From: Pseudohalioglobus sediminis
Lineage (GTDB): Bacteria > Pseudomonadota > Gammaproteobacteria > Pseudomonadales > Halieaceae
Length of the DNA stretch: 64,000 nt
Assembly: GCF_008370495.1 (NCBI RefSeq)
Contig: NZ_VTUX01000002.1
Location: 62,001 to 126,000 of the forward strand
Reading direction: 5' to 3'
The notes below the pieces were generated by a model. It made no database searches and was not told the DNA's origin. It worked only from the letters and a program-made list of their open reading frames with translations. Positions within the stretch are counted from its first letter, which is position 1. Every line of letters starts with the position of its first letter. Both the position numbers and the translations under genes were made by a program. Below, one piece after another: positions 9,210 to 53,499 of the stretch.

Positions 9210-9944
9210 TTACATCTTGCGCAACAGTGCCGAGGGCATCAGTTTCATCGCCTGCGCGACCAGCGTCCAGGGCCAGGGGGGTACGTAACGAAATGAAACC
9301 TGCTTCTCAATCAGGTCCACCATGACCCGGGTGCCGGCCGCCGCCGTTACCAGGAAGGGACGGCTGGCGAGGGCGCGGTTGATATCAGTGTCGATATACC
9401 CCGGCGCAAGTTCGGTGACTACAATATTCTGGCCGTGAACCTCACAACGCAGTGCCTCGAGGTATTTGCCCAGTGCAGCCTTGGTGGCGCTGTAGACGCC
9501 GGAATTGGGCATGCCCCGCACCGCGGCCACAGAGGTGATACCGACAAACTGGCCCCTGCCTTGTTCCCGAAACAATTCTATTGCCGCGTCGGCAGTAGCG
9601 ATAGCGCCGGTCAGGTTGACATCGATCATCTGCGCCATCTGTTGAAACTTGCCTTCGCCAGCTCGCGCCGGCTCACCGAGCCCTGCGTTGGCCACCACGA
9701 TATCCAAACCACCCAGTGCCGCAGCGGCCTCACGCAGGACGACTGGCACCCTGTCGAATTGCGATACATCCAGTTCGCAGATGATAACTTGCGGGGAACT
9801 CGCCTCCAGCTCTGTCTTCAGCTCAATCAGGTCCTCCTGCTTGCGTGCGGTCAGTGCCAGTTTGTAGCCACGTTGGGCAAAATGCCTGGCCATACCCTGG
9901 CCAAGTCCCCGCGTGGCTCCGGTAATCAATACAGATTTACTCAT
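9210..9944 (-). CDS. Short-chain dehydrogenase/reductase
   Basis: Classical SDR of 244 residues, NAD(P)-dependent oxidoreductase of unknown substrate. Visible motifs: glycine-rich TGATRGLGQG, NAG in VVANAGLGE, catalytic Ser in GITSVAAV and Tyr-x-x-x-Lys as YSATKAALGKY. The ATG at 9944 (MSKSVLITG) follows AGGGAG at good spacing; the longer open frame upstream is not credible. The C-terminal SFRYVPPWPW resembles membrane-associated SDRs acting on lipids, but this is only suggestive. Confidence 0.9.
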   Translation of the reverse strand: MSKSVLITGATRGLGQGMARHFAQRGYKLALTARKQEDLIELKTELEASSPQVIICELDVSQFDRVPVVLREAAAALGGLDIVVANAGLGEPARAGEGKFQQMAQMIDVNLTGAIATADAAIELFREQGRGQFVGITSVAAVRGMPNSGVYSATKAALGKYLEALRCEVHGQNIVVTELAPGYIDTDINRALASRPFLVTAAAGTRVMVDLIEKQVSFRYVPPWPWTLVAQAMKLMPSALLRKM

Positions 9945-10427: not shown

Positions 10428-11096
10428 ATGCATATCATGCTGGTTGACGATCATTCCCTGATCCGTTCGGGCATCAGCGATAGCCTCGCCAAACACTATC
10501 CCGGGATTGAGATAACGGAAGCAGAGAGCAGTAAGGCTGCGCTCAGTCTCGCGCGTGAGCAGAGCATTGACCTGGCACTGGTGGACTTGTTCATGCCCGG
10601 CGAAAAGCTGTTCAGCCTGGTTCGCGAACTGGGCTCCAGGGATATGGATATCCCGTTTATTGTCCTGTCGTCGTCAGACAACCCATCGCACATTCGCAAG
10701 TGTATCGATCTTGGTGCGCTCGGCTATGTGCCGAAGTCCTCTGCACAGTCTGAACTGTTTGCCGCGGTAGACCGCGTGCTCGCCGGTGGTACCTATTACC
10801 CCTCGCCAGCGCTGCAAGCGCATCAGCCAGAGCCGGCTGCGGATGAAGAGCCGGTGTCCATGTCCTACGGCTACAACGAGGTCGAGAATATTCTCACGGC
10901 CCGGCAAATGGAAATTCTGGAACTGATTGCACACGGACAAACCAATAAGCAGATAGCCAACAATCTCGGGGTCTCCAACTACACGGTTAAAGTACACGTG
11001 AGCGCGGTATTCAAGGCGCTGGGGCTAAGCAACCGGTCCCAGGCAGCGATTCTTGGCGAGAAGATCGGTCTCTCATCGCAGGTAACGGGAAACTGA
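10428..11096 (+). CDS. LuxR/NarL-type response regulator
   Basis: Two-domain transcription regulator of 222 residues. The N-terminal receiver domain (about 1-118) has acidic pocket D7/D8, phosphoacceptor Asp53 in LVDLFMPG and conserved Lys103 in YVPKSS. The C-terminal LuxR-type helix-turn-helix (about 155-210) reads LTARQMEILELIAHGQTNKQ and then a recognition helix in NYTVKVHVSAVF. It is first in a run with a periplasmic binding protein, a hybrid kinase and a TonB receptor, so the kinase is its probable partner. The resemblance is to NarL-family regulators, some of which control PQQ alcohol dehydrogenases; that link is inference. Confidence 0.93.
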   Translation: MHIMLVDDHSLIRSGISDSLAKHYPGIEITEAESSKAALSLAREQSIDLALVDLFMPGEKLFSLVRELGSRDMDIPFIVLSSSDNPSHIRKCIDLGALGYVPKSSAQSELFAAVDRVLAGGTYYPSPALQAHQPEPAADEEPVSMSYGYNEVENILTARQMEILELIAHGQTNKQIANNLGVSNYTVKVHVSAVFKALGLSNRSQAAILGEKIGLSSQVTGN

Positions 11097-11130
11097 TTCT
11101 CTGCGGCGGCCATCAGGACGGTGCAGAGTG

Positions 11131-12084
11131 ATGGCTAACCAGCTCTATCGCCTGGCACTCTTCGCACTGGTCCTGGCCAGCCTGGTTTTCACTGCGCGGG
11201 CACAGGCCGATGTCGCCCGACCTTTGATCGTGACCAGCGCATTGAGCGGCGTATACGGCGAGATTCTCGAGCGACTGGAAGAGTGCTCGGCCTTCGCCAT
11301 CGACAAGCAAGTGATATCACTCAGCGATGCTGAGTTGAGCGAAGCATCGGTACGCAAGGCAGACTCGATAATAGCAATTGGTACGCGCGCATCAGCGGCG
11401 GTCTACGAACTGGCGCCGAGTGTGCCGGTATTGAGCGCGCTGATTACCGAAAGCGGCTTCGAGCATCTCGCCGCCAGGCACTATGGTTCCGTCGCGCAGG
11501 CGCTGGAGGCCGGGGTTTCGGCGATTTACCTGGACCAGCCTCCAGCGCGCCTGTACCGGCTGGGCATGTTACTTGTGCCCGACGCAGATCGAGTAGGCGT
11601 CATTGCCACTGACCCTGCCAGCGCGAGTATCGTCGATAATATCTCGGGCGACACAATAACCACTCCTGAACTGGAGTGGGTGACGCTGACCGATCTTGCC
11701 AAGCCCATCAAGCTTCTGGGGCCGTTGATGCAGCGCTCTGCGTTCGTGATTGCGCTGCCAGGGAAACGGGCGATAACGCTGTCCGCGGCGAAATGGATTC
11801 TTGAAATTGGTTCCAGTACCCGCACCCCGGTCATTGCCTATTCCCGCAAATACGCCACATCAGGCGCGCTCGCGGCGGTGTATACCTCCCCGGTCGATGT
11901 TGCCGACCAGGTTGCGGATGTATGCACGAGAACGCAGGGCTTCGCCAGCGGGCCAGCAGCGGTGTATCCACCGGAGCACTTTTCAGTCGAAATCAATGCC
12001 GCCGTGGCGCGAGTTCTGGGCATTCCTGTGCGCGACCCCGGCTATTATCGCGATGCCCTGATGCGCGCGGAGGGTCGACCATGA
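11131..12084 (+). CDS. Periplasmic ABC-type substrate-binding-like protein
   Basis: A 317-residue exported protein: signal peptide at residues 1-27 with the hydrophobic core LALFALVLASLVF and likely cleavage after ARAQA. The rest has the alternating strand-helix look of the TrpX-like (ABC_sub_bind) periplasmic binding family, for example DSIIAIGTRASAAVYELAPS and ADRVGVIATDPASASIVD. There is no ABC permease or ATPase beside it, and its stop overlaps the start of the hybrid kinase (ATGA at 12081). A ligand-sensing role feeding the kinase is therefore more likely than transport. Start may be the GTG at 11128 or the ATG at 11131. Confidence 0.75.
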   Translation: MANQLYRLALFALVLASLVFTARAQADVARPLIVTSALSGVYGEILERLEECSAFAIDKQVISLSDAELSEASVRKADSIIAIGTRASAAVYELAPSVPVLSALITESGFEHLAARHYGSVAQALEAGVSAIYLDQPPARLYRLGMLLVPDADRVGVIATDPASASIVDNISGDTITTPELEWVTLTDLAKPIKLLGPLMQRSAFVIALPGKRAITLSAAKWILEIGSSTRTPVIAYSRKYATSGALAAVYTSPVDVADQVADVCTRTQGFASGPAAVYPPEHFSVEINAAVARVLGIPVRDPGYYRDALMRAEGRP

Positions 12085-14753
12085 CGGCTCGTCAGCGCAG
12101 CGGTGGCGGTATGCGACGCAAAATCCTCCTGCTTGCGATCATTCCCGCGTTGAGTATCAGTATTATCCTGACCTGGTATTTCACCAGCACACGCCAGGCG
12201 CAACTGACGCGTGACCTGCAGTTACTTGGTCACACTACTGCCGAGCACCTCGCCATTGCCGGCAAATTGGCCCTGTTTGCGGACAACCTGGAAAGTCTCA
12301 GGCAAATTGGCCTGGGCCCATCCAGTAACCCGGCCGTAACCGGAGTCGCATTTCTGGACTCGTCCGCTGAACCCGTTTTGTTGTTAAGTGACTCCGGCGA
12401 TTTCCAGGTGCCGGGATTTTCCGGCGAACATATGTGGCAGAACAATCAGTACCGGGGAGATGAGATCTGGTATTTCCGCGCCCCGGTGATGCTGGAAACC
12501 GAAACCATGACGGACTATGACGAGGCCGGGGAGGGCGGGCAGGAATTGCTGGGCTGGTCTGTTATCGGCCTGTCGCAAATCGAGCTCTTTCGTGCGCAGC
12601 AGGAAAACCTGTTTGCTGGCTTTGTTATCTTCGCTATTGCCACCATCATTGCCGGCTTCGCCGCCTGGCTGATCGGGCACCAGATTTACCAGCCGGTGCG
12701 AGATCTCACTACCACTGTTGAAACCATGGAAGCGGGCGATCTTTCCGTTCGGGCACGGGTTGCGGGTGAACGCGAAGTCAGGATTCTTGCCCGCGTGATC
12801 AACCGCTTGGCGGCAAACCTTAACGAAACCAATATTCGCCTCAAGCAGGAGGTGGATGAGGCCACCGCGGACCTGCGCGATGCCATGAATGCAAAGGACG
12901 AGTTCCTCGCGCGTGTCAGCCACGAGTTGCGCACTCCGCTGACGACCATTATCGGCTATACCCACCGCCTGGAACGCTCGACATTGACCGCGGAACAGGC
13001 CGAATTCAGCCATGCCATCCAGCAGTCATCGGAGCTGTTGCTGGCGGTCATCAACGATATTCTCGACTTTTCCCGTTTACAGCATGGCGGGCTTGAGTTG
13101 GAAAGTATCGAATTCAACCTCGAGACCGCTCTGGAGGATGTGGTTGCCATGCATGCCAGCGGTGCCAGTGAGAAGTCGATAGAGCTGGTATTGCTTGTCG
13201 ATTCAGACGTCCCGCGCTACTGCCTTGGTGATGTCGTCCGCCTGAAGCAGGTGGTCAACAACCTGTTGGCCAATGCGGTGAAGTTCACTGAGCAGGGCGA
13301 AATCGTGGTGCATGCCGCCATGCAGGATGAGTCGGGCACGTCGCCGCCAGCAGGCGAAAAAAACAGCGGGGTTGGCATGGAAATCAGCGTGCAGGATACC
13401 GGCATCGGAATTGCGCCTGAGGCCATGGACAAACTGTTCACCTCTTTTTCCCAGGCCGATACCTCAATCAATCGACGCTTCGGTGGCAGTGGCCTGGGGC
13501 TGGTCATCTGTAAGCAGTTGGCGGACTTGCTGGGGGGGGATATCTCGCTGCAGAGTCAGGTCGGCGAGGGCACGCGAGCTTCCTTCTCGATTTCGCTGCG
13601 CCGGGCCACCGGTGCCAACCAGCACCTGCCGATCCCGCATCGTGAAGCAGCGGTCGCCGTCGTGGACGCCAACCGCTGGTCCAGGCGCGCGCTGCGCAGC
13701 CAGGTCACACACTGGACACGCCAGGTATACGCACTCGAATCAGTACAGGAACTTATCGATCTGCTCGACAACCCTGCCCCTGAACTGATGGCGGTACTGA
13801 TATCCGAACCACCAGGGGCAGTGCACGATGAAGCGCTGCAGCGCAAGCTGACCGGCCTGCGCGAGCACTATGAGGGCCCCATCGCGCTTATGCGTTATAT
13901 GCTGGAAACGCCGGACATGGAAGGCGAGGGTTGGCACCAGGCTTTGCAGCCAATGACGCTGCTTTCGAAGCCATCGCGCCGCCAGAGTGTACTGCAATGG
14001 CTGGATTCACTGGAGCAGGGCGATACTGCGGAAACGGAAGTACAGAACCCGCTGGACCCAGCGAGCGGCAGCCTTAATGGTATCGAGATAGTCATCGCAG
14101 AAGACAACCAGTTCAACCAGGATCTGTTCAGGATGGTGCTGGAACAGGAGGGGGCCACGGTGCGGGTGGCCAACAATGGCGCCGAGGCGCTACAGGCTTT
14201 TCGTGTATCAGGCGCGACCCTGGTATTGATGGATGCGCATATGCCCGAGGTCGACGGCATTCGCGCAAGCCAACAGATCGTCGAGGAAGCGGCCAGACTG
14301 GAGCGCGAAGTAGTCATTGTCGGCCTCACGGCGGATACTTCAAGCGCGGAGCATGAGCGCTTCATCCAGGCCGGGGCCGTGGAAGTGCTGTCGAAGCCGG
14401 TGAATGAGGATGCGCTCATCGAAACGCTCTGCAGGCACGCAGAAATGGCATACGATGGCGGAGCGAACCGCAGTATAATGGACCTGGACAGTACAGATGT
14501 AGCCCTGCATGCGGAATTGATGGCCCAACTGGGCGCGTTGCGACGAGACCTGGCGCAGGGCGCGTTTGAGCAGTGTCGCGAGATCCTGCACCAGCTCCAG
14601 GGATTATGTGGCCTTTGCGGCATTCATGACCTGCAGCATGGTTTGCAGCAGGTCAAAACGCTTCTGGCTAATAACGAGTTAGCACAGGCGGAACAGAAGA
14701 TCGTTGAGCTGGAGAACATACTGCTGCAAGAGAAGCGGCAGGCGAGGGTGTGA
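12081..14753 (+). CDS. Tripartite hybrid sensor histidine kinase with Hpt domain
   Basis: Inner-membrane BarA-like phosphorelay kinase of 890 residues. Order: TM1 (about 12-33), extracytoplasmic sensor region (about 36-175), TM2 (about 178-199), HAMP (about 199-253), HisKA with His281 in RVSHELRTPL, HATPase with N-box near 393, DTGIGIAPE near 439 and GGSGLGL near 470. Next come a degenerate receiver-like domain (about 522-637), a true receiver with Asp718 in LVLMDAHMPEVDG and Lys772, and a C-terminal Hpt-like helix bundle with His837 in ILHQLQGLCGLCG. It starts at the ATG overlapping the upstream stop. It probably phosphorylates the LuxR-type regulator encoded first in the cluster. Confidence 0.93.
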   Translation: MTARQRSGGGMRRKILLLAIIPALSISIILTWYFTSTRQAQLTRDLQLLGHTTAEHLAIAGKLALFADNLESLRQIGLGPSSNPAVTGVAFLDSSAEPVLLLSDSGDFQVPGFSGEHMWQNNQYRGDEIWYFRAPVMLETETMTDYDEAGEGGQELLGWSVIGLSQIELFRAQQENLFAGFVIFAIATIIAGFAAWLIGHQIYQPVRDLTTTVETMEAGDLSVRARVAGEREVRILARVINRLAANLNETNIRLKQEVDEATADLRDAMNAKDEFLARVSHELRTPLTTIIGYTHRLERSTLTAEQAEFSHAIQQSSELLLAVINDILDFSRLQHGGLELESIEFNLETALEDVVAMHASGASEKSIELVLLVDSDVPRYCLGDVVRLKQVVNNLLANAVKFTEQGEIVVHAAMQDESGTSPPAGEKNSGVGMEISVQDTGIGIAPEAMDKLFTSFSQADTSINRRFGGSGLGLVICKQLADLLGGDISLQSQVGEGTRASFSISLRRATGANQHLPIPHREAAVAVVDANRWSRRALRSQVTHWTRQVYALESVQELIDLLDNPAPELMAVLISEPPGAVHDEALQRKLTGLREHYEGPIALMRYMLETPDMEGEGWHQALQPMTLLSKPSRRQSVLQWLDSLEQGDTAETEVQNPLDPASGSLNGIEIVIAEDNQFNQDLFRMVLEQEGATVRVANNGAEALQAFRVSGATLVLMDAHMPEVDGIRASQQIVEEAARLEREVVIVGLTADTSSAEHERFIQAGAVEVLSKPVNEDALIETLCRHAEMAYDGGANRSIMDLDSTDVALHAELMAQLGALRRDLAQGAFEQCREILHQLQGLCGLCGIHDLQHGLQQVKTLLANNELAQAEQKIVELENILLQEKRQARV

Positions 14754-14772
14754 GGTGGTGCGGAAGTGGCAG

Positions 14773-16836
14773 ATGCGTGACAAGAAGAACCCGGCAATGA
14801 ATTCCACGTGGCGCATTGCGCTTGGCCTGCTGACGCTGGCCCAGGTAAGCGCTGCACATGCGCAGGAAGCTGATTATCTGACCGAGGAAGATGTCTTCCT
14901 CGACGTCCCCGTCGCCAGTGGTGCCAGCCGGTTCCCGCAGGCGCTGAACAAGGCGCCGGTGAGCGTTATTATCATCGATCGCGAAATGATCAAGGCGGCC
15001 GGGGTGCTCGAAGTGCCTGACCTGTTTCGGCTGCTCCCCGGTTTCCAGGTCTATTCCGCTGCCTACAACCATCCTGTGTTCAATTATCATACGCTGCCGG
15101 ATGGCTTCCCCAGTCGCATGGAAGTGCGCATCGATGGTCGATCGGTCTACGAACCCTTTACCAATACCGTGTTCTGGATCGTACAGGGTCTGGAAGTGGA
15201 GGACATCGACTACATAGAAGTGGTTCGTGGCTCAAATGTCTCCGCCTACGGTGCCAACGCCATCAACGGTTCAATCAATATTGTAACGCGTTCGCCTGTG
15301 GCAGCACCGGGTCTCACCCTCCGTGGCGCAGCCGGAAGCAACGATACCGAGAACCTGTCCATCGGCTACAGCGGGACCCATGAGGCTGTCAGCTATCGTA
15401 TTTCCGGGCGCCACCGCCAGAACAGCGGCTTCGGCAGCTTCGAGGGCCAGGACCTGGATGACGACAGCGAGGCGTGGTCGGTTACCGGTAACCTGCTGTG
15501 GACGCCATCCCTGCGCGATAAGGTCAGCGTGCAACTTGGCTACAGTGATAGCGACTTCACTTTCGACCAGGGCAACAGTAACGTTGAGCTTGACGAGTTG
15601 TTTCCCTGGGATATCCAGTATTCATACCAGCACGTCGACTGGCAGCATCAAATCAATCACCAGCACTCGCTGCGTGTGGCACTTACCCACAGTCGCAATG
15701 AGATCAATGCCATAGAACGGGAAGCGCTGCTTTCGGAGCTGATCGGGCTCCCCCCGGGCCTGATCTGGCCCGGACTGGATGATTTCGAATTGGTGCTGGG
15801 CATCGACGACGGCTACTCGGAACGCTACGATCTCGAACTCAGCCATACGGGCGAATCGGGTGAGCGACTCAAGTTCGACTGGGGTGCCAGCGCGCGGCGT
15901 GACCGGGCCAAGAGCCAACTCCACTTCAGCACGGAGTCCTCTGTATCAGAGAACTACTATCGGCTGTTTGGTAATGCTGAATACGATGCGCTGGACTGGC
16001 TGACCTTGAATGCAGGTGCCTCGCTGAGCTACAACGATACGGTCAAGGATCATAACTCCTGGCGTTTATCTGCCAACTTTCATGTCAACGCCAACAACAC
16101 GCTGCGCTTTGCCCTGAGTCGCGCCACGCGTGCACCCACGCTACTTACCGCTAACTATTTCCGTACAATCAACAATGGCGGCGTGGTCTACGACCTGGAC
16201 CTGATCAGTGACGAGGACATAGCCGAGGAGGAGCGCAAGGGAGCGGAACTGGGCTACTTCGGTTACTTCTTTGGCGGCAAGCTGACTACAGATTTGAAGT
16301 TGTTCTACGAGGACAACGAACACCTGATTGATGTGCAGACCGATCGTGACTACCGCGGCCCCCTGTCGGTGGATAACGAGGTGGCGTTCATGACCAACAG
16401 CCTGCAATCAGAGGACTATGGTTTTGAGGCCTACGTGAACTGGCGGCCGGACCAGGCCTGGCTGATTACCGCCCAGTACACGTGGATGGACATCGACGCA
16501 GAGCATGCGCGGCGCATCAACCCGGACAGGATCAGTGATCGCAGCGATGCGGTTGCCGAAAACATGGCCAGCATGATGGTCAACCGTGCCTTCGGACACG
16601 GCTTTCACGGCGCTTTTACCTGGTATTACCAGTCTGAGATCAACTGGAAGAGCGGCCCACCGGTTGAAGACTATGATCGACTGGACGTGAACCTGCGCAA
16701 GGAATTCCAGTTCGAGCGCTTCAGCGGTCGAGTTGAGTTTATCGCCCAGAACATTTTTGGCGACGATTATGCGGATTACCGGCCGTTTCATGAATTTGAT
16801 TCACGATATTACATCAGGCTGGTTACCGAATTCTGA
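14773..16836 (+). CDS. TonB-dependent outer-membrane receptor
   Basis: Outer-membrane gated transporter, 687 residues. A signal peptide (long basic n-region, core ALGLLTLAQVSAA, cleavage after AHA) precedes a plug domain (about 45-180) with SVIIIDREMIKAAG, DLFRLLPGFQVY and YIEVVRGSNVSAYGANAING. A beta-barrel rich in alternating aromatic strands follows, ending YYIRLVTEF with the terminal Phe required for Bam recognition. The ATG at 14773 has GGAAG six bases upstream; another ATG at 14797 is possible. It follows the hybrid kinase by 19 bases, so receptor and signalling genes are likely co-transcribed. The ligand is unknown. Confidence 0.92.
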   Translation: MRDKKNPAMNSTWRIALGLLTLAQVSAAHAQEADYLTEEDVFLDVPVASGASRFPQALNKAPVSVIIIDREMIKAAGVLEVPDLFRLLPGFQVYSAAYNHPVFNYHTLPDGFPSRMEVRIDGRSVYEPFTNTVFWIVQGLEVEDIDYIEVVRGSNVSAYGANAINGSINIVTRSPVAAPGLTLRGAAGSNDTENLSIGYSGTHEAVSYRISGRHRQNSGFGSFEGQDLDDDSEAWSVTGNLLWTPSLRDKVSVQLGYSDSDFTFDQGNSNVELDELFPWDIQYSYQHVDWQHQINHQHSLRVALTHSRNEINAIEREALLSELIGLPPGLIWPGLDDFELVLGIDDGYSERYDLELSHTGESGERLKFDWGASARRDRAKSQLHFSTESSVSENYYRLFGNAEYDALDWLTLNAGASLSYNDTVKDHNSWRLSANFHVNANNTLRFALSRATRAPTLLTANYFRTINNGGVVYDLDLISDEDIAEEERKGAELGYFGYFFGGKLTTDLKLFYEDNEHLIDVQTDRDYRGPLSVDNEVAFMTNSLQSEDYGFEAYVNWRPDQAWLITAQYTWMDIDAEHARRINPDRISDRSDAVAENMASMMVNRAFGHGFHGAFTWYYQSEINWKSGPPVEDYDRLDVNLRKEFQFERFSGRVEFIAQNIFGDDYADYRPFHEFDSRYYIRLVTEF

Positions 16837-17364: not shown

Positions 17365-18015
17365 CTAGTCTGATTTACACAGGTAGCGCAGCAGCAGCGT
17401 GACCAGTTCCTGCCTGAAACTTGCCTGCTCGAGAAGCTCCGGTTCCTCCGAGCTTGCCGACAGCAATACACCTGAGAGAGCGTGGGAAGCAATCCGGCTG
17501 AGCTTGTCGATATCATTGCTCCTCAACTTCGCTTTGTGCCTTCGTAGAAAGCTGGCAAGCCACTCATCCCATCCGGGATGGCTGCGTGAAATCTGCAACT
17601 CATTGATCTGGCGGTGAATGTCAAAGCTGTGCTGGTAGGCGCGGTAGAACTCCGGGTCCATGCGCTGCAGCATAAGCCGTTGCTCGACCTCCATGTCTAC
17701 AATCGCTGCCAGCGTGTCTTCCAGTGAGACCCTGGAAAGTCGCTCAATCTCGACAACACGCTCCAGGGCCGCTGCCTTGTATTGCTTGACCTGTTCCTGG
17801 AAAACCTCCGCCAGTATGGCCTCCTTGTTCGGGAAGTATTGATACAGCGAGGCAATGTTGATGCCTGCCACATCGGCGATACGCTGTGTGGTCAGCTGCT
17901 CGGGGCCTTCCTCTTCCAGTATTTTCAGGCAGGCTTCCTGGATCGCCTTTACCAGCATGAGTGAGCGGCTTTGCTTGGGGCGTTTTCGCGGCTGCGGTAA
18001 ATCAGGCTTACTCAT
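17365..18015 (-). CDS. TetR/AcrR-family transcriptional regulator
   Basis: 216 residues. The N-terminal helix-turn-helix (about 20-70) reads TTQRIADVAGINIASLYQYF with following PNKEAILAEVF, a typical TetR signature; the C-terminal two-thirds is the helical ligand/dimer domain. The basic N-terminus (PRKRPKQSRS) is common in this family. It is divergent from an SDR gene starting at 18281, and the 265-base gap between them holds a long inverted repeat, so it probably regulates that operon and perhaps itself. The inducer is unknown. Confidence 0.92.
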   Translation of the reverse strand: MSKPDLPQPRKRPKQSRSLMLVKAIQEACLKILEEEGPEQLTTQRIADVAGINIASLYQYFPNKEAILAEVFQEQVKQYKAAALERVVEIERLSRVSLEDTLAAIVDMEVEQRLMLQRMDPEFYRAYQHSFDIHRQINELQISRSHPGWDEWLASFLRRHKAKLRSNDIDKLSRIASHALSGVLLSASSEEPELLEQASFRQELVTLLLRYLCKSD

Positions 18016-29666: not shown

Positions 29667-31766
29667 CTACTGCCTGGCGCTGGCCGCCGCTTGCTGGCGC
29701 TGATACAGCTTGTTGGCTTCCGTCAGCACATACTGGCGTATGGCCTCCGACTGTTTCTCATCCAGGTATGGCGCAAAACTGATCATGCCGCGCGCGCTCA
29801 ACACCCCTTCCAGTAGGATGTCCTGCCAGATATCGTGTACGGCTTTGCCTGAATAACGCAGGTCCGGGGTCAGGCCGCCGGTGCGCATGCTGTCGCCATG
29901 ACAGTAGCTGCAATGTCGCTGGTACAGGACCTGGCCCTGGGTCACCGCGTCCGCACTCGCCGTGACTGGCTCCGGCTTCGGCATTGCCCGTTCCTGATCC
30001 GGAACAGGCGGCAGTGTGGCCTCCCCTCCCAGCTTGAATACCAGCACCCTGGACAGGTTAGGGATCTTACGCCCGTGGAACAGCGGGCCGGCCTCGGCCG
30101 CCGCGCCGCCGCCGAAGCCCGCAGCGACTGCCACGTACTGCACACCGTCAATGGCATAGCTTACCGGCGCGGCCATGACCATGGTCTGAGCATCAAATGA
30201 CCAGAGCTCCTCACCTGTGCTGGCGTTATAGGCATTCAGTTGCCCGGTGGCGTTGCCACTGAACACCAGGTTGCCAGCCGTGCTGAGTACGCCGCCTCCA
30301 CCCAGCAGGCCGACGTCGGTGGACCAGCGCGCCGACTGGGTCAGCGGGTCCCATGCCAGCAACTGCGAGGTATAGACCTGGGCCAGCACCTCTTCCAGGT
30401 TCGGGATGTCTTCTACCACATTGCCCATGCGGTCAAAGCCGGTGTTCCAGTAGCCCTGGCCAGGCTGGCGGTCGCGTTCGTTGGTCGCCTGCAGGAAGCG
30501 TATGGGGATCGTGAGTTGCGGGATATAGACCAGGCCCGTTCCCGGGTGGAAAGACATCGGGTGCCAATTGTGTGCGCCGGCGTTGCTGGGCAGGCTGACG
30601 TTCTTGCCGTCGAAAACCCGGGCGTTTGGCGTTTCAACTGGTCGCCCCGTTTTCATATCCACGCCGCTTGCCCAGGTCATGGCGGAGTAGGCCTCGGCCG
30701 AGAGCAGCTCACCACTGCTGCGGTCGAGTACGTAGAAAAACCCGTTCTTGGGCGCCTGCATAAGCACCTTGCGCAACTTGCCGTCCACTTCAAGGTCGGC
30801 GAGGATCATGTGCTGGGTGGCGGTATAGTCCCAGGTTTCGCCGGGCGTGGTCTGGTAGTGCCAAACGTACTCCCCGGTATCGGGTCGCAGGGCGACGATC
30901 GAGGTCAGGAACAGGTTGTCGCCGCCGCCGGGGCTGCGCAGGGACTGGTTCCAGGGCGAGCCATTTCCGACGCCGATGTACAGCAGGTCGAGTTCCGGAT
31001 CGTAAACCATGGAATCCCAGACGGTGCCGCCACCGCCCCACTTCCACCATTCGCCGGTCCAGGTTTTCGCCGCCATCTCCAGTTCCGGCCTCTCGAAGCC
31101 GTCAGCGGGATTGCCGGGCACGGTGTAAAAGCGCCACGCCATTTTGCCGGTCTTGATGTCGTAGGCGCTGACGTAACCGCGCACACCCAGTTCGGCACCA
31201 CCATTACCAATCACAACCTTGTCGCCGGCTATGCGCGGGGCACCCGTTATCGTATAGGGTTGTTCGCGGTCAGTGGTCTGCACGTCCCAGATGACTGCGC
31301 CATCTTTGGCATTGAGCGCCACCAGGCGACCGTCATAGGTGCCGACAAAGACCATGCCATCCGCATAGGCCACGCCGCGGTTGACGGCATCACAACAGCC
31401 CTTGGCCAGGAACGCGCGGTCCACCTCGGGGTTATAGAACCACTTCAGCTCACCGGACTTGGCATCCAGTGCATAAACCATGGACCAGCTGCCGGAGACA
31501 TACAGGGTGCCGTCCACCATCAAAGGGGTGGCTTCAATGCCCCTGCGGGTATACATATTGAATGACCAGGCCAGGCCCAGCTGGTCGACGTTGTCAGTAT
31601 CGACCTGCTGTAGCGTGGAATGCCGTTGTTCGCCCCAGTCGTTGCCATGCAGCCGCCACTCCGTATCCGGCGCGGGCGGCCACTTCTCCGCCGCCAATAG
31701 CGGCAAGCTGCTGCCAAACGCGGCCAGGAGTATGGCTATGGAGGTGTGTCTGAGGCTGATTCGCAT
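29667..31766 (-). CDS. PQQ-dependent quinohemoprotein alcohol dehydrogenase (type II)
   Basis: Periplasmic alcohol dehydrogenase, 699 residues: signal peptide (about 1-26, cleavage after LLAA), eight-bladed PQQ propeller (about 35-580) and C-terminal cytochrome c domain with CSYCH (about 610-690). The adjacent-Cys disulfide over PQQ is Cys124-Cys125 in KGCCDAVNRG. Calcium ligands are probably Glu192 and Asn268, and catalytic Asp313 lies in GETWDYTATQ. Position +2 from Asp313 is Thr, not the extra Asp of lanthanide enzymes, so a calcium type is expected. The ATG at 31766 follows GGGAGA. No PQQ synthesis genes are in the window. Confidence 0.94.
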   Translation of the reverse strand: MRISLRHTSIAILLAAFGSSLPLLAAEKWPPAPDTEWRLHGNDWGEQRHSTLQQVDTDNVDQLGLAWSFNMYTRRGIEATPLMVDGTLYVSGSWSMVYALDAKSGELKWFYNPEVDRAFLAKGCCDAVNRGVAYADGMVFVGTYDGRLVALNAKDGAVIWDVQTTDREQPYTITGAPRIAGDKVVIGNGGAELGVRGYVSAYDIKTGKMAWRFYTVPGNPADGFERPELEMAAKTWTGEWWKWGGGGTVWDSMVYDPELDLLYIGVGNGSPWNQSLRSPGGGDNLFLTSIVALRPDTGEYVWHYQTTPGETWDYTATQHMILADLEVDGKLRKVLMQAPKNGFFYVLDRSSGELLSAEAYSAMTWASGVDMKTGRPVETPNARVFDGKNVSLPSNAGAHNWHPMSFHPGTGLVYIPQLTIPIRFLQATNERDRQPGQGYWNTGFDRMGNVVEDIPNLEEVLAQVYTSQLLAWDPLTQSARWSTDVGLLGGGGVLSTAGNLVFSGNATGQLNAYNASTGEELWSFDAQTMVMAAPVSYAIDGVQYVAVAAGFGGGAAAEAGPLFHGRKIPNLSRVLVFKLGGEATLPPVPDQERAMPKPEPVTASADAVTQGQVLYQRHCSYCHGDSMRTGGLTPDLRYSGKAVHDIWQDILLEGVLSARGMISFAPYLDEKQSEAIRQYVLTEANKLYQRQQAAASARQ

Positions 31767-31925
31767 TGCTGCTTTCTCCCTGGGCGCAGGCATCGCCGTC
31801 CATTGCGGCGGACCTGAGCCCGCGTTGCGTAATTATTATTACCGTGTGCTTTACCCGGGCATTCTATAACCCTATATCGCCCAAGGTACAGGAGCGCCTG
31901 CTTGCGGATATGCAAAGCGCATGCG

Positions 31926-50796: not shown

Positions 50797-53499
50797 ATGA
50801 ACCCTCTGCTTAAGGCTGGCGCGTTCCTCGTGCCGGTGTTGTTGATCGCTGTGCTCGCCATCCTCACTGAAGAGCCCGAAGACAGTAAAGATACTTGCGC
50901 GAACCCGGACAGCGATGTCGCCGCGGCCATCCTGGCAGACTCGGCACATGACCAGGATGGGCTCGCCAACCGTGCCATCCTGCAGCGTGGTCGCTGCCAG
51001 CAGCCCAAAGCCGCAAATGCGGACCAGGCCGCGGCGGCAAGCGCGGCCGCAGAGGCACTGGCAGCCGATTCATTGACGGGCGCGGCAAACCCGGCGGAGA
51101 CCAAAGCCGACAAGCCCGCCGCGCAGGTGGAACAGGGTGCCGCACCTGAGCAGGCGTCCCCTGCTGAGGCCAAGGACCGGGACGGCCAGCAGGACATGCC
51201 GACCGACGACCCCTCGGGCAATGCGGCACCTATTACCCCACTGTCGTCGACCAATACCGTCGCCAACCCGGGTCACCAGGCAACAACGCAGGCGGCAGCC
51301 CCTCCGGTCACGGTGCCCACTGGAACCGCAACCGAGATCGTGCAGCACCGCTGCATGGTCTGCCATGGATGCTACGACGCCCCCTGCCAGTTGAAACTGG
51401 AGGCACAGGCCGGGCTGGAGCGCGGTGCCAGCAAGGACCTGGTTTACAACGGCGGGCGCTTGATCGAGGCCAATATGACACGCCTTTTCGATGACGCGCT
51501 CACCGAGAGAGGCTGGCGCAAGAAAGGCTTCTACCCGGTGCTGGACAAGGAACAGCCCGAGCGCGGTGTCATGTACCGGCTGCTTGAGCTGAAGCAGGCA
51601 CACCCCTTGCCGACAGATGGGCCGATGCCGGAGGGGTTCGATTTCTCCCTGGCGCGTGACCAGCAGTGCCCGAGACAGGACGAGTTTGACAGTTACGCTG
51701 AGGATAAGCCGCTGTGGGGAATGCCCTACGGCTTGCCAGGGCTCAACCCGGAACAACACCGGACCCTGACCTCGTGGCTGGATGACGGTGCCCCGGCACC
51801 CGCACTGGCAACGCTGCCGGCCGCACAGCAACAACTGGTCACGGACTGGGAGACCTTTCTCAACGGCGACACCCCCAAGCAGCGGCTGATGGCGCGCTAC
51901 GTCTATGAACACCTGTTCCTGGCCAGTCTTTACCTGGAGGCAGGCGAGCAGCCGGTCTGGTTCCGTCTGGTGCGCTCCCGATCCGAACCCGGCAAGCCTC
52001 TGGACTTGATCGCCACGCGCCGCCCCTACGATGATCCCGGGGTCAAACGGGTGTATTACCGGTTGCAGCGCATGCCGGTGCAAGCGCTGGCCAAGATCCA
52101 CATGCCCTACCGCTTCGATCAGGCGCGCATGGATTGGTACCGGGGTCTGTTTCTCGAGCCGGCATACGAGGTCCCGAGCCTGCCCGGTTATGAGCGCGAA
52201 GTTGCCTCCAATCCCTTTAAAACCTTCGTCGACATTCCGCTGCCCTCGCGCTATCGCTTCCTGCTGGAAGAGGCGCGCTTTACCATCATGAACTTCATCA
52301 AGGGGCCGGTCTGTCGTGGCCAGATCGCCCTTAACGTCATCGACGATCACTTCTGGGTGGTCTTCGCCGACCCGGAGCGTATGGATATGGATGTCGATGC
52401 CCGTTTCCTGTCCAGCGAGATGGACAAGATGCGCCTGCCGACCCCGGCCACCGGCACAGTCATCGACCTGTTCAGTTGGTCACGCTACGCCAAGGCTCAT
52501 GAAAAATACCAGCGCGCCCGCTCACGTTTCATTCGCAAGCGATCGCAGCAGGGCGAGCGGCTCACCCTCGATTCAGTCTGGGATGGTGACGGCAATAATG
52601 CCAACGCCTCATTGACCATATTCCGTCACTTTGACACCGCGTCTGTGGAAATGGGCCTGCTTGGCGCTGTACCCAAGACGGCCTGGGTTATCGATTACCC
52701 GCTGCTGGAGCGAATTCACTATCTGCTGGTTGCCGGCTTTGATGTTTACGGGGCGGTTTCACACCAGCTGGAGTCCCGCTTGTACATGGACTTCCTGCGC
52801 ATGGAGGGAGAATTCAATTTCCTGTTGTTCATGCCAGCAGAACAGCGCCTGCCGATGTGGGACTACTGGTATCGGGATGCGCCCAAGGGGGCCCGTGAGC
52901 ACTTTATTGAACGCAACGCACTGGTCAGCGAAACCACGGACATCAAATACGAGACCGACAACCCCAAGGCCGAATTGCTGCTGGCCCTGCGTGAGCGCAT
53001 CCACGGCGCTAAAGCGGCGAAGTTTGACTACAAGCGCCCCGAGGACAAGGATATTGCGGCACAGTTGGCGGCTATTGAGGCAGAGGTTGGCGCGCACAAC
53101 AGCTTCATGCCCGATGTCAGTTTCGTCAACGTGATCGGCCCGCAGCGCGACCGCTTTTACACCCTGATCAGCAACTCTGCCCACTCGAATATTGCGCAAC
53201 TGTTTCGCGAGGACAAACGCAGGTTGCCGGCAGAGGATTCCATGTCGATAGTGCGCGGCTTTATCGGCGCCTATCCGAACTATTTTTTCCAGGTAGAGGT
53301 GAAGGAATTACCGCAGTTTGCCAGCGCTATCGCGGCGCTTGGCAGCGCCGATGACTACCGCAAGTTCCGCGCCCGCTATGGCGTGGCGCGCAATGCGTCC
53401 TGGTTCTGGCGCTTTGCCGACAAGGCCCACGCCCGTTACCAATGGCTGGACCCTGTCGAGTTTGGACTGTTCGACCTGAATCGTTACAACGGTTACTGA
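50797..53499 (+). CDS. cti: Periplasmic fatty-acid cis/trans isomerase with long N-terminal linker
   Basis: Converts cis-unsaturated membrane fatty acids to trans in response to solvent or heat stress, giving rapid membrane stiffening. A hydrophobic N-terminal segment (about 6-23) exports or anchors it. The heme c motif CMVCHGCYDAPC is at about 186-197 and the rest matches Cti, including YRFLLEEARFTIMNFIKGPV and DHFWVVFADPE. At 900 residues it exceeds the usual 760-790 because an Ala/Asp/Pro-rich, low-complexity linker of about 105 residues (70-175) separates export signal from heme domain. It abuts convergent sohB with no spacing. Confidence 0.93.
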   Translation: MNPLLKAGAFLVPVLLIAVLAILTEEPEDSKDTCANPDSDVAAAILADSAHDQDGLANRAILQRGRCQQPKAANADQAAAASAAAEALAADSLTGAANPAETKADKPAAQVEQGAAPEQASPAEAKDRDGQQDMPTDDPSGNAAPITPLSSTNTVANPGHQATTQAAAPPVTVPTGTATEIVQHRCMVCHGCYDAPCQLKLEAQAGLERGASKDLVYNGGRLIEANMTRLFDDALTERGWRKKGFYPVLDKEQPERGVMYRLLELKQAHPLPTDGPMPEGFDFSLARDQQCPRQDEFDSYAEDKPLWGMPYGLPGLNPEQHRTLTSWLDDGAPAPALATLPAAQQQLVTDWETFLNGDTPKQRLMARYVYEHLFLASLYLEAGEQPVWFRLVRSRSEPGKPLDLIATRRPYDDPGVKRVYYRLQRMPVQALAKIHMPYRFDQARMDWYRGLFLEPAYEVPSLPGYEREVASNPFKTFVDIPLPSRYRFLLEEARFTIMNFIKGPVCRGQIALNVIDDHFWVVFADPERMDMDVDARFLSSEMDKMRLPTPATGTVIDLFSWSRYAKAHEKYQRARSRFIRKRSQQGERLTLDSVWDGDGNNANASLTIFRHFDTASVEMGLLGAVPKTAWVIDYPLLERIHYLLVAGFDVYGAVSHQLESRLYMDFLRMEGEFNFLLFMPAEQRLPMWDYWYRDAPKGAREHFIERNALVSETTDIKYETDNPKAELLLALRERIHGAKAAKFDYKRPEDKDIAAQLAAIEAEVGAHNSFMPDVSFVNVIGPQRDRFYTLISNSAHSNIAQLFREDKRRLPAEDSMSIVRGFIGAYPNYFFQVEVKELPQFASAIAALGSADDYRKFRARYGVARNASWFWRFADKAHARYQWLDPVEFGLFDLNRYNGY

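Follow-up and report, generated by a model that had tools for sequence, protein, structure and literature searches.

A four-gene locus at positions 10428 to 16836 of a 64 000-nucleotide stretch of the Pseudohalioglobus sediminis genome (Gammaproteobacteria, Halieaceae; contig NZ_VTUX01000002.1, positions 62 001 to 126 000; hereafter, the window) was analysed. The locus probably forms a self-contained trans-envelope sensing operon, in which a TonB-dependent receptor would supply a periplasmic binding protein (PBP), the PBP the sCache_4 sensor of a GacS/BarA-type hybrid kinase, and the kinase its own LuxR-type regulator. This route had been proposed in a preliminary description made from the sequence alone. 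The unit is real and recurrent, and this route explains it best; its import, presentation and regulon steps are ones that we infer. The genes, read from the sequence, all lie on the + strand:

10428..11096, strand +, LuxR-type response regulator (receiver and helix-turn-helix, REC-HTH), 222 aa, with Response_reg and GerE domains (Pfam)
11131..12084, strand +, periplasmic binding protein, ABC_sub_bind-like, with DQPxxR motif and signal peptide, 317 aa
12081..12084, strand +, ATGA shared by the PBP stop codon and the kinase start codon (4-base overlap), read directly
12081..14753, strand +, GacS/BarA-type hybrid kinase, 890 aa (Pfam)
14773..16836, strand +, TonB-dependent receptor without STN domain, with Plug and OMP_b-brl_3 domains (Pfam)

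The regulator gene is separated from the PBP gene by 34 bases, and 19 bases lie between the kinase stop codon and the receptor ATG at 14773. The common strand, the 4-base overlap and the 19-base gap are as first described. The PBP start was placed at ATG 11131, with GTG 11128 as a possible alternative; an alternative receptor start, ATG 14797, stands ahead of a good signal peptide.

In the proposed route, the receptor would carry a ligand from outside through the outer membrane. The PBP would bind this ligand in the periplasm and present it to the sCache_4 domain instead of an importer, as suggested by the gene neighbourhood, the translational coupling and the swapped outputs of related modules. 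Phosphate would then pass from H281 through D718 and H837 of the kinase to D53 of the regulator encoded first in the operon; these residues are all present, and the transfer between them is predicted. The regulator would finally set gene expression, and the window copy, having a regulator to itself, would be a dedicated variant.

The neighbourhood of PBP relatives was surveyed in two sets of loci. PBP relatives were found in 73 of 369 genomes of the class, and 77 class loci other than that of the window were read. The second set was drawn from named genomes, whose matches numbered 193; the 80 best of these were taken. The two sets partly overlap (L040 and L098, for example, share a regulator sequence). 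Of the 76 named PBPs that passed a length filter, 70 were used. Neighbours were labelled on greedy open reading frame (ORF) calls, from phmmer comparisons with the four proteins of the locus and from ABC ATPase and GGDEF motifs, a labelling short of full annotation. A TonB-dependent receptor was found at position −1 from the PBP gene in 52/76 class loci and 62/78 named loci, and a signalling gene at +1 in 60/76 and 71/78, respectively. Because the partners keep these fixed offsets and other offsets are nearly empty, the neighbourhood is more than chance. Among the 58 class loci whose flanks reach 4 kb or more upstream and 3.5 kb or more downstream, the receptor was present in 46, the output gene in 48, both in 41 and neither in five; both partners were present in 49 of the 62 named loci with enough flank. 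The named set spans Oceanospirillaceae, Porticoccaceae, Sedimenticola, Methylotenera, Thiobacillus, Thauera, Azospira and others. These comparisons support conservation of the receptor, PBP and sensor genes as neighbours across many gamma- and betaproteobacteria.

The output of the module changes and its sensor is kept. Signalling proteins of the named set comprised 38 kinases and 33 GGDEF proteins, and sCache_4 was present in 33/35 kinases and 29/29 GGDEF-EAL proteins examined (64 of the 71 named outputs, of 600–1100 aa, were compared, and 35 of those 64 in a further set). At L054, L066, L094, L096, L101, L104 and other loci, the PBP is followed by a GGDEF-EAL protein that also has sCache_4 and HAMP domains, which makes these a cyclic di-GMP (c-di-GMP) form of the module. 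Mapping of the output label onto the PBP tree required 7–8 changes, of which the starred branches force at least two, compared with about 32–34 for shuffled labels; this was obtained by a quick method on a tree with many long branches. The 4-base overlap between PBP and output genes recurs in 78 of 132 pairs of relatives. Because the sensor is kept under swapped outputs and the PBP gene is coupled to the output gene, the PBP is likely to serve the sCache_4 domain, and this is the main argument for that role. In the class sample, 111 sCache_4 stretches were found, 61 of them with a detected PBP gene directly upstream on the same strand, a count that is possibly low since at most six PBP candidates were scored in many genomes. 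At least one such pair occurs in 59 of the 97 sCache_4-bearing genomes, and sCache_4 lies directly downstream of 61 of 78 PBP matches. The wider result is that the receptor and PBP, a putative feeder pair, are, to judge from the PBP count, attached to over half of the class sCache_4 sensors sampled.

The window PBP scored 21.0 bits against PF04392 (ABC_sub_bind), under the cut-off of 25.9; all 39 aligned relatives matched this family at E ≤ 0.01. An AlphaFold2 model (predicted local distance difference test, pLDDT, 91.9) has a predicted type I solute-binding fold, and its closest solved folds were 6hnj (Z 22.3), 3lkv (20.3) and 3lft (19.2), the last solved with L-Trp according to the structure title. 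Fold and profile searches both lead to the ABC_sub_bind family despite the low Pfam score. Among the solved relatives of the superfamily are TorT, in company with the TorS sensor, and XylFII, with LytS. Of 153 sensory PBPs, 139 carry the DQPxxR motif; the four PBPs set aside because they group with importer-linked ones all lack it.

The kinase contains, in order, sCache_4, HAMP, HisKA (H281), HATPase, a degenerate receiver, REC (D718) and Hpt (H837). All of these except the degenerate receiver reach their Pfam cut-offs, in the GacS/BarA order (for example Hpt, 24.7 versus 24.6, and sCache_4, 25.7 versus 22.1). No recognisable receiver was found within residues 521–640. H281, D718 and H837 are invariant across a 32-row kinase alignment. 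E. coli BarA aligns over residues 10–859 (27%, 281 bits); RcsC, ArcB and EvgS align in the catalytic part alone (RcsC, 212 bits, residues 250–788 only). Searched as a profile, the window sensor had as its top match the GacS periplasmic detector domain 5o7j (E 1.2e-15), whose solution is described in the available part of PMC5595915; hhalign against the BarA N-terminus gave 99.9. In a structural search with the sensor, 4u64 (Z 11.9) and CitA domains led and 5o7j was not among the best 50 matches listed, an absence which proves nothing. With the BarA equivalog model NF008318, the kinase scored 471.6 bits; it is filed as GacS/BarA-type rather than BarA because this lies under the cut-off of 890. 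It is GacS/BarA-type, and by score, place and partner it is neither BarA nor GacS.

The regulator matched Response_reg (73.5 bits) and GerE (66.3 bits), and its phospho-acceptor D53 is invariant in a 12-row alignment. Its best NCBIfam model was ErdR (119.4 bits, under cut-off). The receptor matched Plug (PF07715, 48.9 bits) and OMP_b-brl_3 (29.2 bits), and no STN domain appeared in its Pfam list to E 0.1. Its nearest NCBIfam model was the TOL_0244 receptor (NF053590; 178.1 bits versus a cut-off of 645), which was matched by all 31 aligned receptors. The genome is receptor-rich: the barrel family of TonB receptors is matched 54 times.

Several observations weigh against the proposed operon. The window PBP is a long branch with at most 31% identity to any relative, and the window regulator is a long branch in its own tree. 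Coupled kinases largely keep an (S/A)E(Y/F)G motif, with E or D in 80/89 and Y or F in 85/89; the window sensor lacks it and has K and L at these two positions. The window copy therefore reads, from these comparisons, as a divergent one. It places the receptor gene last, unlike the common order; only L062 is similar among the loci read, with an aminotransferase gene between. No receptor gene lies nearby in 12 of the 58 well-flanked class loci. In a mirror-tree comparison, partial distance correlations were 0.29 for PBP and sensor and likewise 0.29 for PBP and kinase core, which corresponds to joint inheritance with no special tie between PBP and sensor. The regulator is optional in the module, since it was found at only 14/77 class loci and 2/80 named loci. 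A more GacA-like regulator elsewhere in the genome and two P. aeruginosa gene pairs whose products did not bind, both described below, also count against the operon.

An unlikely alternative is that the PBP only scavenges or buffers its ligand, or is the orphan of an importer with a distant permease, so that receptor and PBP would be an uptake pair merely regulated by the kinase. The PBP fold does come from a family of real importers. In two P. aeruginosa pairs of neighbouring solute-binding protein (SBP) and kinase genes, no binding was seen, so that neighbours need not interact, as given in the available part of PMC11113362. A true ABC importer (BPD_transp_2 permease and ABC_tran) accompanies two divergent PBP relatives (L193 and L229), both among the five weakest matches. 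It is missing at the other 75 of the 77 class loci and within three genes of the PBP in all 80 named loci. The ATPase at L221 (4953–10384), where the PBP is followed by a sCache_4 kinase, belongs to an adjoining Mla-type set (ABC_tran, MlaD and an auxiliary lipoprotein). ABC permease and ATPase genes were likewise missing, as first noted for the PBP surroundings, among the ten flanking ORFs scanned, which are part of the window ORFs; the regular company of a full ABC transporter was thus not found. Moreover, the PBP gene is coupled to the sensor gene and not to the receptor gene, and it remains with sCache_4 when the output is GGDEF-EAL.

It is also rather improbable that the kinase acts on a GacA-like regulator encoded elsewhere, the LuxR-type gene being a bystander. 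The rarity of this gene in related modules favours such a partner, and so does a better match to the GacA/UvrY model NF007018 elsewhere in the genome (G000:C18:36456-37046, strand −, locus L268), which scored 120.3 bits versus 74.4 for the operon regulator (about 75 bits, 75.2 and 74.4, in two determinations). The cut-off of 280 was passed by no regulator in eight genomes of the genus. Against this, the regulator gene comes first in the operon, and 16 of 17 module regulators cluster in the tree, albeit with weak support. The nearest relatives of the window regulator are those heading other module copies, and it groups with the module regulator of L039 (88/85). In 40 class loci, an rlmD-cluster gene was found near the PBP in 15 and a cysM-cluster gene in 15 (one representative of each was identified); the LuxR-type gene, present in 11, never coincided with the rlmD neighbourhood (hypergeometric 0.0019). 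Such exclusion is expected if detached modules bring their own regulator. The predicted His-Asp-His-Asp relay is intact in its residues, and its last step is the part that is weakened by the optional regulator and the better match elsewhere.

Little credence is given to direct sensing by the kinase of its own ligand, in the way of the acetic or formic acid proposed for BarA (protonated acetate, in the available part of PMC8639471), with PBP and receptor adjusting the set point or being unrelated: no PBP was detected upstream of 50 of the 111 class sCache_4 stretches, and a PBP profile run on ten of these found none within about 1.5 kb. In at least two of the 50 (G191 and G194), the kinase has the PBP on its opposite flank. 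The BarA pocket positions L95, T98 and I136 have no consensus in coupled sensors and vary in ten uncoupled ones too, so that they do not decide the matter. Coupled and uncoupled sCache_4 sensors both exist.

The proposed operon combines features of several known systems. It shares the sCache_4-HAMP-HisKA-HATPase-REC-Hpt order with GacS-GacA and BarA-UvrY, and the rlmD-cluster gene near its relatives recalls the E. coli relA-rlmD-barA arrangement. Unlike the window kinase, E. coli barA has no adjoining PBP or receptor gene; the window kinase is not at relA-rlmD, its neighbours being a short-chain dehydrogenase/reductase (SDR) gene and a TetR gene, and it has its own non-GacA regulator. As in the SBP-coupled sensor kinases TorT-TorS, LuxP-LuxQ and XylFII-LytS, a type I solute-binding protein gene stands next to the gene for a hybrid kinase with a periplasmic sensor, coupled to it and free of importer genes; torT adjoins torS in E. 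coli. The SBP of the window differs from these in its family (ABC_sub_bind, DQPxxR), its sCache_4 partner and its dedicated TonB receptor; we know of no dedicated TonB receptor in these three systems. In Vibrio, NspS is an importer-less periplasmic binding protein acting on the GGDEF-EAL protein MbaA. This resembles the GGDEF-EAL outputs found here, in different protein families and, to our knowledge, with no TonB receptor gene. TonB receptors are tied to gene control in FecA-FecR-FecI. The window receptor is unlike FecA in having no STN domain, and no sigma or anti-sigma gene was found among the ten flanking ORFs, so that the distinction from sigma/anti-sigma signalling made in the preliminary description stands. 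The PBP fold is shared with TrpX-type ABC importers (3lft, 3lkv, 6hnj), from which the window PBP (in the flanking ORFs) and most relatives differ by having no permease or ATPase.

For the receptor, TOL_0244/OmpS receptors provide the nearest named model, far under its cut-off. TOL_0244 is up sevenfold on a C28 alkane in the available part of PMC6304351. Because the window receptor scores so far below the cut-off, this alkane link does not carry over. Alkane sensing was rejected as a general reading, the owners of the module including methylotrophs, Gallionellaceae and Thiobacillus; it may still fit single species.

No description of a unit of receptor, binding protein and sCache_4 sensor with interchangeable outputs was found in the open-access literature searched. 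SBP-coupled kinases have been described, as have TonB receptors; it is their combination in one unit, with phosphorelay or c-di-GMP outputs, that these searches did not turn up. GacS ligands are given as still unknown in the available part of PMC7695008, and the coupling of PBP and sCache_4 bears on this signal and may help to find what long-studied sensors detect. We tentatively raise the doubtful possibility that many gamma- and betaproteobacterial GacS/BarA-type sensors and their c-di-GMP counterparts read a compound imported through TonB and presented by a DQPxxR PBP, and not a periplasmic metabolite directly. The missing GacS signal would then be a TonB-dependent ligand, and the Pseudomonas and E. 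coli sensors would have lost, or never gained, their feeders. If the PBP is a ligand carrier, the question of the GacS signal turns into plain biochemistry.

The module is unique within its own family, yet it is part of a class-wide recurrent arrangement. Conservation of gene order, which the preliminary description had put forward as a check, therefore holds for receptor, PBP and sensor across the class and not for the four genes in close relatives. The PBP was present in one of 140 family genomes, its own, and in none of the other 139 sampled. Family kinase matches begin at residue 174 or later, none spanning the sensor (up to six candidates were scored per genome). The own genome carries the sCache_4 domain, which was found in none of 12 other family genomes looked at; the own genome has just two further kinase-like places at 1e-20, both without the sensor. 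Counterparts of the TetR gene beside the module, 79% identical, were found in two of seven congeners, where the far-side genes are conserved and the near side carries no module genes. Synteny with G029 and G031 ends at this TetR gene. The G+C content of the module is slightly lower (0.579 versus 0.608 and 0.606). Because of the absence in family relatives, the synteny break and the lower G+C, horizontal gain of the module is suggested, with loss in the relatives as an alternative. No PBP relatives were found in plasmids, nor, with single-protein patterns, in viral contigs or genome_contigs.

Both outer neighbours of the locus are on the − strand: the SDR gene ending at 9210 and the TetR gene at 17365–18015. 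The ten flanking ORFs encode dehydrogenases, TetR, a glyoxalase, a hydratase, a sulfotransferase and a luciferase-like enzyme, and two have no matches. A link to PQQ dehydrogenases, which had been suggested as possible targets, was not borne out: the PQQ-dependent dehydrogenase propeller at 29667–31793 (−) is 13 kb away, and no connection between it and the module was seen. A fatty acid cis/trans isomerase (CTI), an enzyme of envelope stress, is encoded further along the window at 50797–53499 (+; 849.5 bits).

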